The position numbers and the translations under genes were made by a program. This document shows, piece after piece, positions 5,907-33,576 of a stretch of DNA of 64,000 nt. Below the pieces are notes generated by a model that was given only the letters and a program-made list of their open reading frames with translations, searched no databases and had not been told where the DNA came from. The stretch spans positions 3,844,001 through 3,908,000 of the forward strand of contig NZ_CP037953.1 of the NCBI RefSeq assembly GCF_009756665.1. The letters are read 5' to 3'. Numbering within the stretch: the first letter of the stretch is position 1; each line of letters starts with the position of its first letter. This DNA is from Permianibacter aggregans. GTDB lineage: Bacteria; Pseudomonadota; Gammaproteobacteria; Enterobacterales; Permianibacteraceae.

Positions 5907-6845
5907 ATGAGTCTTCAAATTCTTGTGACGGGTGGTGCGGGCTATCTCGGTTCGATTATGGTTCCGGACCTGCTTTCTCTAGGGCACAAAGTAACGGTCA
6001 TCGACAACTTCATGTATGAGCAGAATAGTCTTGCTCATGTATGTGCCAATGAGCATTTTGACATCATTCGCGGTGATATTCGTGATGAGTCGTTGATGAA
6101 GCAAAAGCTTTCAAAAGCTGATGTAGTCATTCCATTGGCGGCATTGGTTGGCGCGCCTATCTGCAAAAAAGATCCCGTTGGTGCAACCACAATTAACCAC
6201 GACGCAGTTTTGATGATGTTAAAGCATGTTGGTCGTCAACAGATGATTTTGATGCCAACGACAAACAGTGCATATGGTTCTGGCGATAAAAATAATTTTT
6301 GTACTGAGGAGTCTCCATTAAATCCCGTATCAAAATATGCCAAAGACAAAGTCGAGATTGAGAAAGCATTAATGGAACATCCGAATGCGATCAGCTTTCG
6401 CTTAGCAACAGTTTTTGGTATGTCGCCTAGGATGCGTCTGGACTTGCTTGTCAACGACTTTACATACCGAGCCGTAAACGATCGTTTTGTTGTGCTCTTT
6501 GAAAGTAGTTTCAAGCGCAATTATATTCATGTAAGAGACGTCAGTCGCGCCTTTCAGCATGGCATCAAGAATTTTGAGACAATGAAAGGACAAATCTACA
6601 ATGTAGGATTGTCCGAGGCAAACGTATCTAAGCGTGAGCTATGCGAAACAATTAATAAATATGTTCCGGACTTCGTTTTCCTGGATGCTCCGGTAGGAAA
6701 GGACCCGGACCAAAGAAATTATATTGTCTCCAATGAAAAAATTGAAAGAACCGGATACAAACCAGCACACTCACTAGATTCTGGTATAAAGGAGCTCATT
6801 AAGGGATATAGCATGATCAGAAATACTCGGTATGGGAACGTGTGA
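5907..6845 (+). CDS. NAD-dependent sugar epimerase/dehydratase (SDR), substrate unknown
   Basis: A 312-aa extended SDR enzyme. VTGGAGYLGS (residues 7-16) is the NAD(P)-binding glycine motif and SKYAKDK carries the catalytic YxxxK. NSAYG and KRNYIHVRDVSRAF are typical of nucleotide-sugar epimerases. It follows gmhA by 17 bp with a good ribosome binding site (AGGGGAG), so it is likely to act on the GDP-heptose made by this locus or on a derivative. The exact reaction (epimerase, dehydratase or reductase) cannot be read from the sequence. Its stop overlaps the next GTG start. Confidence 0.8.
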   Translation: MSLQILVTGGAGYLGSIMVPDLLSLGHKVTVIDNFMYEQNSLAHVCANEHFDIIRGDIRDESLMKQKLSKADVVIPLAALVGAPICKKDPVGATTINHDAVLMMLKHVGRQQMILMPTTNSAYGSGDKNNFCTEESPLNPVSKYAKDKVEIEKALMEHPNAISFRLATVFGMSPRMRLDLLVNDFTYRAVNDRFVVLFESSFKRNYIHVRDVSRAFQHGIKNFETMKGQIYNVGLSEANVSKRELCETINKYVPDFVFLDAPVGKDPDQRNYIVSNEKIERTGYKPAHSLDSGIKELIKGYSMIRNTRYGNV

Positions 6846-29386: not shown

Positions 29387-31963
29387 ATGCGTATGGATCG
29401 ACTGACCAGCAACCTGCAATTGGCGCTGGCGGATGCGCAATCGATTGCGCTCGGACGCGATCACCAGATGATCGAGCCCGTCCATATTTTTCAGGCACTG
29501 CTGAATCAGGACACCGGCACCGTTCGGTTATTGCTGGAGCGGGTTGGCGTCAATATCAATTCGCTGCGTTCACAGCTGGCGGAATTGCTCGACCGCTTGC
29601 CAAAAGTGTCCGGCAGTGAAGGCGATGTGCATCTGTCGAATGATGCCGGCCGTTTGCTGAATATCTGCGACAAGCTGGCTCAGCAGCGCAAAGACGCCTA
29701 CATCTCTTCCGATGTTTTTCTGATCGCGGCGGCCGACGACAAAGGTGCGCTCGGCGATTTACTGCGCAAGCTGGGTTTGCGTAAAGAGGCGCTGGAAAAG
29801 GCTATTGATGAAGTGCGTGGTGGCCAGAAAGTCGAAGATCCGAACGCCGAAGAAAATCGCCAGGCTTTGGAAAAATACACGATTGATTTAACGGCGAGAG
29901 CCGAGCGGGGCAAGCTCGATCCGGTCATTGGTCGCGACGATGAAATTCGCCGGACCATTCAGGTATTGCAGCGTCGCACCAAGAACAACCCGGTGCTGAT
30001 CGGCGAACCCGGCGTCGGTAAAACCGCGATTGTCGAAGGCTTGGCCCAGCGCATCGTCAACGGCGAAGTGCCGGAAGGGCTGAAGCGCAAACGAGTGCTG
30101 TCGCTCGATATGGGCGCGCTGATTGCCGGTGCGAAATTCCGTGGTGAGTTCGAAGAGCGCCTGAAAGCGGTGCTCAATGATCTGGCGAAACAGGAAGGCC
30201 AGATCATTCTGTTTATTGATGAACTGCATACGATGGTCGGTGCCGGCAAAGCCGAAGGCTCGATGGATGCCGGCAATATGCTCAAGCCGGCGCTGGCGCG
30301 CGGTGAGTTGCATTGTGTTGGCGCCACAACGCTCGATGAATACCGCAAATACGTCGAGAAAGATGCCGCACTCGAACGTCGCTTTCAGAAAGTATTGGTT
30401 GATGAACCGACGGTGCAGGACACCATCGCTATTTTGCGCGGCTTGAAAGAACGTTACGAAGTGCACCATGGCGTGGAAATTACCGATGACGCCATTGTCG
30501 CCGCCGCGACGTTGTCGCATCGCTATATTTCCGATCGGCAACTGCCTGATAAGGCCATTGATCTGATGGACGAAGCCGCCAGCCAAATCCGCATGGAAAT
30601 CGACTCGAAACCGGAATCAATGGACCGGCTCGAACGCAAACTGATTCAGCTGAAAATCGAACGCGAAGCGCTGAAAAAAGAAACGGACGCCAATGCTCGT
30701 AAACGCCTGGAAGCGTTGGAAGATGACATCAAGAAGTTGGAGCGCGAATTTGCCGAGTTGAATGAAGTCTGGGTCGCCGAGAAAGCCGCCGTACAAGGTT
30801 CGAAATCGATCAAAGCCGATCTGGAGCGTGCCCGCCAGGATCTGGAAACGGCGCGTCGCGCCGGTGATTTGACCCGGATGTCAGAGTTGCAGTACGGCCG
30901 CATTCCGGAGCTGGAGCGCAAACTTGATATGGCCGCGCAAGCGGAAATGCAGCACATGAAACTGCTGCGCAATAAAGTCTCCGATACCGAAATTGCCACC
31001 GTTGTTTCACGCTGGACTGGTATTCCGGTCTCGAAAATGCTCGAAGGTGAGCGCGACAAATTGCTGCGCATGGAAGAAGCGCTGCATCAGCGTGTCATTG
31101 GCCAGGATGAAGCCGTCAATGCGGTGGCCAATGCCGTGCGACGTTCGCGCGCCGGTCTTGCTGATCCGAACAGACCTAACGGTTCGTTTTTGTTCCTCGG
31201 TCCAACCGGCGTCGGTAAAACCGAATTGTGCAAATCGCTGGCCTCGTTTCTGTTCGATACCGAGGAAGCGATTGTCCGTATCGACATGTCTGAATTCATG
31301 GAAAAGCATGCGGTCGCCCGTTTGATTGGCGCGCCTCCGGGATATGTGGGTTACGACGAAGGTGGTTATCTGACTGAGGCCGTACGTCGCCGTCCGTACT
31401 CGGTCGTGCTGTTCGATGAAGTCGAAAAAGCCCATCCGGATGTGTTCAACGTATTGTTGCAGGTGTTGGAGGACGGTCGCTTGACTGACGGCCAGGGCCG
31501 CACCGTCGATTTTCGTAATACGGTTGTGGTCATGACCTCGAACCTCGGTTCGGATTTGATCATGGAATATGCCGGCAAGTCGCACGAAGAATTGAAGTCG
31601 ATGTTGATGGATGTCATCGGTAAATTTTTCCGTCCGGAATTCATCAATCGCATTGATGACGTCGTCGTGTTCCACGCCCTGCAGCAGGAGCACATCATCC
31701 ATATCGCCGAACTGCAGATTGAACGCCTGAAGCGTCGTTTGGCAGATCACGATATGTCGATGAACCTGACTGACGAAGCGCTGAAACACTTGGCTGAGGC
31801 CGGTTCTGACACGGTATTCGGTGCGCGGCCATTGCGTCGAGCGATTCAGCAACTGGTCGAAAATCCGCTGGCGCAGCTGATGTTGTCAGGCCGCTTTGTC
31901 AAAGGCGATTCAATCGTTGTTGATGTTGCGCCGGATGGACTGACGTTTAACAAACCATCATGA
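29387..31963 (+). CDS. clpB: ATP-dependent disaggregase ClpB
   Basis: ClpB (858 aa, full length), a hexameric AAA+ chaperone that pulls proteins from aggregates together with DnaK. The N-terminal Clp repeat domain covers residues 1-145. The first ATPase has [18 protein letters not shown] and [14 protein letters not shown]. The coiled-coil middle domain (about residues 405-525) distinguishes ClpB from ClpA. The second ATPase has [14 protein letters not shown]. The start ATG follows GAGGATATCCTC. Heat-shock control is supported by the sigma-32 promoter upstream. Confidence 0.97.
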
Positions 31964-32063
31964 CTTTGATCGAGTGCGATTCGTCCAACCGTAGTTGTCG
32001 AATATGGACGCTTGCCGCGGTCAGATAAGCTGAACGGTGTTGAGCTCAAATAGTCGGTCGACC

Positions 32064-32097
32064 GCAACGCCTGTGAGACTTTTCTCACAGGCGTTGC
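32064..32097. repeat. Perfect 15-bp inverted repeat after clpB
   Basis: GCAACGCCTGTGAGA and its exact complement TCTCACAGGCGTTGC are separated by CTTT. No T-run follows, so it is not a textbook terminator, though a stem this strong could end or stabilise the clpB mRNA. It sits 100 bp after the clpB stop and before the sRNA region. Confidence 0.75.
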
Positions 32098-32166
32098 CGA
32101 GAATATCGCAAACTTGTGAGGGACACTCGCCTGCTATTGGAGCGGGTTCATGACTAAATGATTGAA

Positions 32167-32182
32167 TGTAAAGAGATTTCCA
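32167..32182 (+). promoter_or_regulatory. Possible GacA-type upstream activating site
   Basis: TGTAAA-GAGA-TTTCCA is an imperfect palindrome (5 of 6 arm pairs) that matches the layout TGTAAG-N4-CTTACA of the GacA/UvrY box found upstream of rsmX/Y/Z. It lies about 85-100 bp before the first GGA hairpin. Recognised by eye only. Confidence 0.35.
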
Positions 32183-32249
32183 AACTTGGTTCGATTTGGT
32201 AAGTCGCCGTGCGCAAAACACGGATGGTGAAGATTCGGCGTCTAGTCGA

Positions 32250-32408
32250 TTAGCATGCACACGTTGCCTAGGACGGCACAGGGAGTGACAACAGGAGGTT
32301 GTCAGTCAACGGAGTGACGGCAGGGAGCCTGCGCTTGACCAGGAAGGGAACCTGAAATCTCAGGGCATGAGCGATATAGAAGGGGCGATCAGAAGATCGC
32401 CCCTTTTT
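32250..32408 (+). ncRNA. CsrB/RsmZ-like CsrA-sequestering small RNA
   Basis: A non-coding stretch with repeated GGA motifs in hairpin loops. The stems are TGCC/GGCA around TAGGAC (32265-32278), CAC/GTG around AGGGA (32277-32287), TGACAAC/GTTGTCA around AGGAG (32286-32304), GTCA/TGAC around ACGGAG (32305-32318), GCAGG/CCTGC around GAG (32320-32332), and CAGG/CCTG around AAGGGAA (32340-32354). A strong terminator follows. This is the architecture of RsmX/Y/Z and CsrB/C, which titrate the translational regulator CsrA/RsmA. The 5' end is approximate because no clear -10/-35 was found. Confidence 0.8.
32382..32408 (+). terminator. Rho-independent terminator of the sRNA
   Basis: The perfect 9-bp stem GGGGCGATC / GATCGCCCC has loop AGAA and is followed by TTTTT. 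It ends the sRNA about 47 bp before the DUF502 gene. Confidence 0.92.
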
Positions 32409-32454
32409 CGTTTGCTATAGTGTGCGCCCTTGCTGCCACAACAATAGTTGGTCC

Positions 32455-33114
32455 ATGAACGAAAACAAGCCGTTACCGGAGCTAGAGCAACCCAAACCGA
32501 TTCGCGACAACATCATTATCGGATTGGTGGCATTGTTGCCGATTACCATACTCGTGTTCTTTTTCCGTTGGCTTTATTTGACCACCACGGAACTGATTAG
32601 CCCGTTGACACAGCTTGTTGTTGGCTGGCTCAGTGTCGGCGCGTGGTTTGCCGATATTTTTGTGCTGGCTGTTCTGATTGCTTTTTTGTTTTGTGTTGGC
32701 CTTTTGGTACGCACTCGCCTTGGTGCATTTTTCGGTGAGTTGATTGGTCGTTATCTGCTGGCCAAACTGCCAGGCTATCGGCTGGTCAAGGAAACCATTG
32801 CCCAGTTCATTCGTACGGACAAAGCCAGTCCGTTTTCCAAGGTCGCCGTTGTCAAATTTTACGGCGAAGATGTAGGCGCGACCGCATTCGTCACAGCCGA
32901 GCATGAAAATGGTTATGTCACGGTGTTTGTGCCGACCGGTCCGAACCCGACCAGCGGCCTGATGTTCCATGTGCCGGCGCACCGTGTGGTTGTGTTGAGC
33001 GATATCCCGGTTGATATGGCGATGAGAACGGTGATTGGCTGCGGGGTCGGGGCTCAGCCCATCGTCAATGCGGCATTCGCGCCGATAATCACGGGCCAAT
33101 CTGGAAAAGTGTAA
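32455..33114 (+). CDS. DUF502 family inner-membrane protein
   Basis: A 219-aa protein with two transmembrane helices (about residues 22-45 and 62-85), a LAKLPGYRLVKETIAQF segment and a C-terminal soluble part with FVPTGPNPTSGLMFHVP, all characteristic of DUF502. Function is unknown. The start ATG at 32455 gives the normal family N-terminus. A longer open frame from 32422 starts in the sRNA terminator tail. It probably needs its own promoter, since the sRNA terminator lies directly upstream. Confidence 0.88.
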   Translation: MNENKPLPELEQPKPIRDNIIIGLVALLPITILVFFFRWLYLTTTELISPLTQLVVGWLSVGAWFADIFVLAVLIAFLFCVGLLVRTRLGAFFGELIGRYLLAKLPGYRLVKETIAQFIRTDKASPFSKVAVVKFYGEDVGATAFVTAEHENGYVTVFVPTGPNPTSGLMFHVPAHRVVVLSDIPVDMAMRTVIGCGVGAQPIVNAAFAPIITGQSGKV

Positions 33115-33288
33115 AAAAATGTTGATTCGGTCGTTGTAATGCGGTGGTCCAGCCTTTACCATTTTGGCGCTGCATTGAGAAGCCATCATCAAAGATGACC
33201 GGAGTTCGTTAAGCCGTCCGATCATTTTTGAGATGGCTTCTAGTTCCCTATTTTGTGGCATTTTTTTCTTACTCGAGGCAGAAAAACC

Positions 33289-33576
33289 ATGAAGACCCTG
33301 AATATTCTCGCTATTGCCGCTGCAATCGCCGCTCTGGCTGCTTGCAACCAACAAGAACAAGCTCCGGCTGAACAAGCTGCTCCAGCCGCTGAACAAGCTG
33401 CTCCAGCCGCTGAACAAGCTGCCGAGCAAGCTGCTCCGGCTGCCGAAGAAGCTGCTCCAGTAGTTGAAGAAGCCGCTCCGGCCGCTGAAGAAGCTGCTCC
33501 GGTAGCTGAAGAAGCTGCTCCGGCCGCTGAAGAAGCCCCAGCCGAAGAAAAGCCGGCTGAAGGCGAAGGCCAGTAA
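33289..33576 (+). CDS. Small Ala/Pro/Glu-repeat lipoprotein
   Basis: A 95-aa predicted lipoprotein. MKTLNILAIAAAIAALAAC is a signal peptide with lipobox LAAC. After the Cys nearly the whole chain is a repeated EQAAPAAE / EEAAPVAE unit, very acidic and without Lys until the last residues, so it is likely an extended, unfolded tether or spacer. The DNA repeats too (units of about 24-27 bases), so copy number may vary between strains. Function unknown. An in-frame ATG at 33253 would spoil the signal peptide. It is followed by a terminator. Confidence 0.8.
   Translation: MKTLNILAIAAAIAALAACNQQEQAPAEQAAPAAEQAAPAAEQAAEQAAPAAEEAAPVVEEAAPAAEEAAPVAEEAAPAAEEAPAEEKPAEGEGQ

Follow-up and report, generated by a model that had tools for sequence, protein, structure and literature searches.

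A candidate Csr/Rsm-type small RNA between clpB and a DUF502 gene in Permianibacter aggregans

The gap between clpB and a DUF502 gene in Permianibacter aggregans carries a cluster of GGA motifs closed by a terminator, which raises the question of whether it encodes a regulatory RNA that sequesters CsrA. The initial annotation of the window (the whole stretch of DNA analysed, 64,000 nucleotides long) had read positions 32250-32408 as an RNA of the RsmZ/CsrB type. This reading is supported by the A(N)GGA cluster in hairpin loops and by the terminator, and it gains further support from an exact UvrY box, from genes for CsrA, UvrY and BarA, from sibling candidates in the genome and from stretches before DUF502 in some relatives. 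Judging from these sequence features, we put at about 93% the probability that the gap contains the gene for a Csr/Rsm-type small RNA about 155 nt long, a CsrA sponge controlled by UvrY/GacA. CsrA-titrating RNAs are a well-known kind of system, to which the window RNA is a newly added candidate.

Motifs, hairpins and ends of the predicted RNA

The upstream neighbour, clpB (29387-31963, + strand), encodes an ATP-dependent chaperone that scores 1491.8 and 1431.1 bits with the NCBIfam ClpB equivalogs, over cut-off. Downstream is the DUF502 gene (32455-33114, + strand; PF04367, 50.4 bits with a cut-off of 23.8), for which the ATG at 32455 was chosen as the start, a GTG at 32422 being a possible alternative start of the open frame. 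The predicted CsrB/RsmZ-type RNA (32253-32408, + strand, about 155 nt), supported by the A(N)GGA cluster, folds and a hairpin test, begins about 290 nt after the clpB stop. The claim that no open reading frame explains the pattern stands for the + strand, where there is no frame of at least 40 aa between clpB and the DUF502 frame and the frames starting after 32180 reach a maximum of 30 aa, but on the - strand a 79-aa frame (32021-32260) overlaps the first bases of the interval.

At least seven GGA triplets had been claimed within about 160 nt, and seven were counted in 32250-32408 (at 32271, 32282, 32294, 32311, 32324, 32342 and 32347), all of them in the A(N)GGA form. The plain GGA count is unremarkable: it is tied by other places in the 64 kb window and equalled in 97 of 300 dinucleotide shuffles. 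The density of A(N)GGA, eight in 130 nt, is the maximum for both strands of the window, the runner-up having six. The eighth motif of this densest cluster, at 32220, precedes the predicted RNA start. When 32253-32408 was given 300 dinucleotide shuffles, 11 of them attained the seven found within the RNA itself.

These triplets had also been said to lie mostly in or near the loops of short perfect stems. A stem loop was counted where four or more Watson-Crick pairs closed a loop no longer than 9 nt. Five of the seven GGAs fell in such loops, against 0.90 expected from 2000 shuffles that left the motifs in place (P = 0.0015), which bears the claim out; with the identical measure, E. coli CsrB places 7 of 21 GGAs in stem loops (P = 0.015). 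The minimum-energy fold puts four of the seven GG pairs in hairpin loops, compared with 0.76 in shuffles, 2 of 300 of which had as many.

Five mutually non-overlapping candidate hairpins can be drawn on the + strand, including both of those singled out in the initial annotation. Hairpin 1, TGCC-TAGGAC-GGCA (32265-32278), and hairpin 2, TGACAAC-AGGAG-GTTGTCA (32286-32304), are each found by the stem search and in the minimum-energy fold, and between them lies an AGGGA (32280-32284) whose last two bases are paired in a 2-bp helix in the fold. Hairpin 4 (32319-32332) is drawn as GGC-AGGGA-GCC by the fold or as GCAG-GGAGC-CTGC by the stem search. Hairpin 3 (GTCA-ACGGAG-TGAC, 32305-32318) and hairpin 5 (CAGG-AAGGGAA-CCTG, 32340-32354) are possible structures from the stem search that the minimum-energy fold pairs otherwise; hairpin 5 bears two GGAs, one of them partly within the stem. 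The folding energy of the whole interval has a z of -4.86, and that of the interval without its terminator a z of -1.90, matched by 11 of 200 shuffles. The terminator thus accounts for most of the low folding energy, and energy was therefore not used as evidence.

The 3' end is marked by an intrinsic terminator (32382-32408, + strand) with a 9-bp core (GGGGCGATC/GATCGCCCC), an AGAA loop and T5, just as the 9-bp GC-rich terminator with T5 had been described. The fold extends it by four pairs with the T run, giving 13 pairs in total from 32378. Although drawn by the fold, the terminator at 32382 is absent from the output of the terminator scan, probably owing to G-T pairs that were allowed to run into the T run. 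The 5' end is probably near 32253. Weak candidate -10 elements are found at 32241-32253 on the + strand (TCTAGT, 32241-32246, or GATTAG, 32248-32253); there is no recognisable -35 for the predicted RNA, and a sigma-70 scan found no + strand promoter. Beyond the terminator, TGCTATAGTGTGCGCCC (32413-32429, + strand) contains a TATAGT that is the likely -10 of DUF502. A close copy of this element, TGCTATAGTGGCGCGCCC, recurs at the matching place in the genome of a member of the same genus (G001), suggesting that DUF502 probably has a promoter of its own.

An upstream UvrY/GacA box and the Csr circuit of the genome

A search with the pattern TGTRAGN6CTYACA revealed an exact UvrY/GacA box, TGTGAGACTTTTCTCACA (TGTGAG-N6-CTCACA), at 32072-32089. 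Measured from its centre, the box precedes the predicted start at 32253 by about 172 nt and the first A(N)GGA of the predicted RNA by about 190 nt. This is the one exact match in the window, where 0.01 is expected from shuffles; with up to two mismatches there are seven matches against 4.96 expected, which is near chance, and the other six all have two mismatches. For comparison, the available part of one report gives the UvrY site of E. coli csrB as TGTGAGAGATCTCTTACA, centred at -183/-182, with the consensus TGTAAGN6CTTACA (PMC4682653). The half-sites TGTGAG (32115) and TGTAAA (32167), considered as the upstream site, were dropped once the exact palindrome at 32072 was seen. The box is enclosed by a perfect 15-bp inverted repeat with a 4-nt centre (32064-32097), which exceeds the length that the box requires and is followed by no T run. 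As RNA, this repeat could double as a 3' hairpin of clpB.

There are three exact boxes in the 4.27 Mb genome, and an A(N)GGA cluster follows each of the three, beginning 148-219 nt on; for the window box the offset is 148 nt, or 198 nt if the motif that precedes the predicted start is left out. Five genomes together hold 12 exact boxes, of which six have a cluster in one orientation, three of these being in the P. aggregans genome. In the opposite orientation a cluster accompanies 1 of the 12, at one of the same six sites. These counts rest on a definition chosen post hoc, which requires at least six A(N)GGA within 150 nt and a cluster start 130-230 nt from the box. A seventh exact box (G002:C19, L084) has clusters beginning at +31 and +291, beyond the 130-230 range. 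When up to one mismatch was allowed, the box exceeded its reversed control in P. aggregans itself (17 vs 8) and G001 (11 vs 7) and slightly in G058 (13 vs 10), but not in G002 (3 vs 4) or G015 (10 vs 10).

In two of these genomes we also noted further Csr-type RNA candidates. Contig C3 of the same-genus genome has one with an exact box (L067, 1517-1712) and one with a box matching at 11 of 12 positions (L072, about 1571-1700), and contig C66 of G058 has one with an exact UvrY box (L069, 1495-1700).

The protein partners of a Csr system are all present in the genome. CsrA is encoded by a single copy, next to an amino-acid-kinase/ACT frame of the aspartokinase type; it is over the cut-off of the CsrA equivalog model and identical to E. 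coli CsrA at 55 of 60 residues (92%). The UvrY/SirA/GacA equivalog is matched at 331.9 bits (cut-off 280) by a gene with uvrC directly downstream, and the BarA equivalog at 932.1 bits (cut-off 890) by a protein with HAMP, HisKA, HATPase, receiver and Hpt domains. Proteins closely matching UvrY and BarA are also encoded in G001 and in G002, a genome of the same family.

The other two exact boxes of the genome, which read TGTGAGAGATCGCTTACA and TGTGAGATATCTCTTACA, precede two tandem GGA-rich RNA candidates at 3.038 Mb (C1:3038428-3039083), and the window RNA is for this reason probably the third Csr-type RNA of the genome. On the extracted locus (L068) the two candidates lie at about 1086-1222 and 1548-1741, with boxes at 873 and 1371 and terminators recognised by eye, downstream of a 273-aa frame that by eye is dapB-like. 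Their GGAs fall in stem loops in 4 of 6 (P = 0.0030) and 7 of 15 (P = 0.0025) cases. Over the whole genome the CsrB model finds 3038346-3038566 at 24.1 bits and 3038843-3039085 at 39.3 bits, with a cut-off of 71, and the tandem locus has no match to any Rfam family at gathering. The window RNA is probably partly redundant with this pair.

By analogy with the family, as described in the available portion of PMC7652899, we infer that the window RNA is transcribed, controlled by UvrY, bound by CsrA and active in titration. BarA would phosphorylate UvrY (GacA), and phospho-UvrY would bind the palindrome at 32072-32089 and activate the weak promoter near 32241-32253; RNA synthesis would stop at the terminator, 32382-32408. 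The GGA loops, up to five of them, and the further GGAs would then bind CsrA dimers, and CsrA would thereby be drawn from its mRNA targets. If confirmed, the RNA would give another example of a cell with several CsrA sponges, the separate roles of which could be tested.

The DUF502 neighbourhood in relatives and competing explanations

A DNA search of 59 genomes with the interval returned matches from the P. aggregans genome itself and none even from the same-genus genome, the sequence having diverged too fast for covariation in the stems to be counted. A search with the DUF502 protein picks out the same-genus genome G001, the same-family genome G002, G015 and G058 (another family), and directly upstream of DUF502 there is a GGA-rich stretch with a terminator in G001, G002 and G058. 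The place of the RNA before DUF502 is common to the three genomes of the family that were searched; its sequence is not. The annotation had proposed that GGA motifs should be conserved in relatives that keep the synteny. Checked on the DUF502 side, the motifs are kept in G001 and G002, but the clpB partner was not found there, nor did we find any relative with the clpB-DUF502 order.

Counted by stem loops, the enrichment seen in the window RNA is significant in some of these relatives only. The G001 stretch has eight A(N)GGA, including one at the terminator tip. Its GGAs are in stem loops in 2 of 7 cases (P = 0.22), with a P of 0.0015 for mean stem length, and the fold places 2 of 8 in hairpin loops, as do 28 of 300 shuffles. 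G002 has two GGA-rich stretches in tandem before DUF502. For the short RNA, 1 of 7 GGAs is in a stem loop (P = 0.60; mean stem, P = 0.12), and by fold 4 of 7 are in hairpin loops, a number found in 0 of 300 shuffles. The farther candidate (L007, about 500-766, G002:C10) is long, with 18 GGAs in 242 nt and an exact box; 6 of the 18 are in stem loops (P = 0.014), and part of it matches PrrB_RsmZ at 24.8 bits. The G058 stretch, with nine A(N)GGA, is the weakest of the relatives: it spans 312 nt, 4 of 10 GGAs are in stem loops (P = 0.056), and a 103-codon open frame overlaps it. No exact box precedes the DUF502-linked RNA nearest the gene in G001, G002 or G058. The best match there is 10 of 12 positions, for the short G002 RNA; those in G001 (7 of 12) and G058 (8 of 12) are both at chance level.

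How far does the association with DUF502 extend? Among 394 genomes of the order, 17 have this DUF502 at an E of 1e-20 or better, and a GGA-rich gap precedes it in four of these, namely P. aggregans (G000), G001, G002 and G058. It was not found in G015 or in 12 genomes of one family (f8); G015, G302 and G339 have clusters with 6-8 motifs 650-800 nt upstream, located within other open frames, and these were not counted. At 20 DUF502 loci of a named collection, two of which (L040 and L041) contain just 210 and 28 nt of upstream sequence, more than four A(N)GGA in 150 nt were found at most 600 nt upstream only at L027, in G002. A general link with DUF502 was accordingly rejected, as the DUF502 genes of many other genomes have no such neighbour. 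In the literature library searched, no paper contained both "DUF502" and "small RNA".

Several observations were made in passing around these genes. A CsrB-like stretch in an uncultured Oleiphilus MAG (L036, 5907-6150) has 18 A(N)GGA in 130 nt, an 11 of 12 box at 5907, about 80 nt ahead, and a terminator-like hairpin by eye; it lies 2.4 kb downstream of a DUF502 match and has no Rfam match at gathering. The P. aggregans genome contains a second, distant DUF502-like match outside the window (C1:2076434-2076847, L008; 28% identity). In the window, a frame at 33253-33576 (+ strand), between DUF502 and an aldehyde dehydrogenase gene, encodes a small repetitive protein rich in Ala and Glu whose start resembles a lipobox (LAACNQQ); a similar frame occupies the matching place in G001, and the protein has no Pfam match.

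DUF502 follows the interval directly, and GGA-rich stretches occupy the same place in G001, G002 and G058, as would be expected if the interval were a 5' leader of DUF502 that CsrA binds in an attenuator-like manner, regulating in cis and not as a free RNA. Yet a strong terminator closes the interval, the promoter-like element TGCTATAGTG that follows the terminator and precedes DUF502 is found again in the same-genus genome, and G002 has two tandem stretches before DUF502; a UvrY box combined with seven candidate CsrA sites is moreover the make-up of a free sponge. We regard such a leader as quite improbable. Less probable still is that the RNA is derived from the clpB 3'-UTR, as the end of that transcript freed by processing. 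Its distance from the clpB stop and the UvrY box, which implies a promoter of its own, argue against this origin, as does the gene found upstream in relatives: clpB was considered as a conserved neighbour and rejected, since its place is taken by a gene for an Ntox15-domain protein in G001 and for an amidohydrolase in G058, which indicates that the RNA goes with DUF502. (The nearest long upstream frame in G002 is a different gene on the opposite strand.) To the credit of a clpB origin, no T-run terminator is seen by eye between clpB and the RNA, where the scan that also missed the 32382 terminator found none, and the 15-bp inverted repeat (32064-32097) might form a hairpin used in processing or at the transcript end.

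It is hardly credible that the interval is a functionless GGA-rich intergenic stretch beside a terminator, with cluster, loops and box brought together by coincidence. Plain GGA counts are indeed matched elsewhere in the window, and the folding energy without the terminator is just z -1.90, but the hairpin placement (P = 0.0015) and the exact box (0.01 expected in the window) are mutually independent, and the arrangement recurs at two further places in the genome. A free, CsrA-titrating RNA thus remains our preferred reading. To this one might add that the UvrY box, lying within an inverted repeat that would double as the clpB 3' hairpin, makes chaperone transcription and Csr RNA synthesis couple or interfere, and that the DUF502 neighbourhood is a functional link to Csr. 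We consider this extension unlikely; were the coupling real, heat stress would feed into the Csr circuit.

Rfam models and known Csr RNAs

One proposed check went against a formal assignment of the RNA: in the covariance-model search with the Rfam models CsrB, CsrC, RsmX, RsmY and RsmZ, no gathering score was reached. No Rfam family of the Csr kind is over its cut-off in the window, or beside DUF502 in the relatives, including 10 of the 20 loci of the named collection. RF00166 (PrrB_RsmZ) scores 16.3 bits on the interval with a gathering score of 44; RF00018 (CsrB, gathering 71) has no match there, and the CsrC, RsmX and RsmY models have none at E up to 10 in 32000-32700. Over five whole genomes, none of the 55 RF00166 matches listed is over the cut-off, and at E up to 10 this model finds matches in 12 of 14 control genomes, so that weak scores with it mean little. 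The best match to the interval at permissive settings, STnc250 (24.2 bits, gathering 42), was rejected, its alignment being largely to the terminator.

The window therefore adds a Csr RNA candidate that is invisible to Rfam, which misses all three candidates of the genome. All three exact boxes of the genome lead to a Csr-type RNA candidate, and A(N)GGA density combined with an exact UvrY palindrome can, in this one genome, find such RNAs where covariance models fail.

Among known RNAs, Pseudomonas PrrB/RsmZ is similar in length (133 model positions) and provides the sole Csr-type Rfam model with a match to the interval at E up to 10, extending over the full model; the score is nevertheless far under gathering. 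A parallel is found in Pseudoalteromonas fuliginea, where the available text of one study describes three Csr RNAs in one genome, Pf1, Pf2 and Pf3, the fewest motifs being 9 GGA (PMC11882849). By the same text, a search for GGA motifs, promoter and terminator yielded Pf2 and Pf3, and significant matches to Pf1 and Pf2 were lacking outside the genus (PMC11882849). The P. fuliginea RNAs were studied experimentally, whereas the window RNA is known by prediction alone.

With E. coli CsrB and CsrC the window RNA shares multiple A(N)GGA motifs in hairpin loops, an intrinsic terminator and a UvrY palindrome that precedes the start (here the predicted one) by some 170-185 nt, in a genome with BarA, UvrY and a CsrA that is 92% identical. 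It differs in its neighbours and in size, about 155 nt with 7 GGAs as against the 369 nt and 22 GGAs of CsrB, and the cut-off of the CsrB model is reached nowhere in the genome. A precedent in method comes from Shewanella oneidensis, whose CsrB1 and CsrB2 were, according to the accessible part of the report, predicted from AGGA/ARGGA motifs, mainly single-stranded, together with an upstream TGTAAGN6CTTACA box (PMC3171408). As there described, these RNAs are two nearby copies (PMC3171408), like the pair at 3.038 Mb in P. aggregans; the window RNA, unlike them, would be an additional copy, lying about 0.84 Mb away from that tandem pair.
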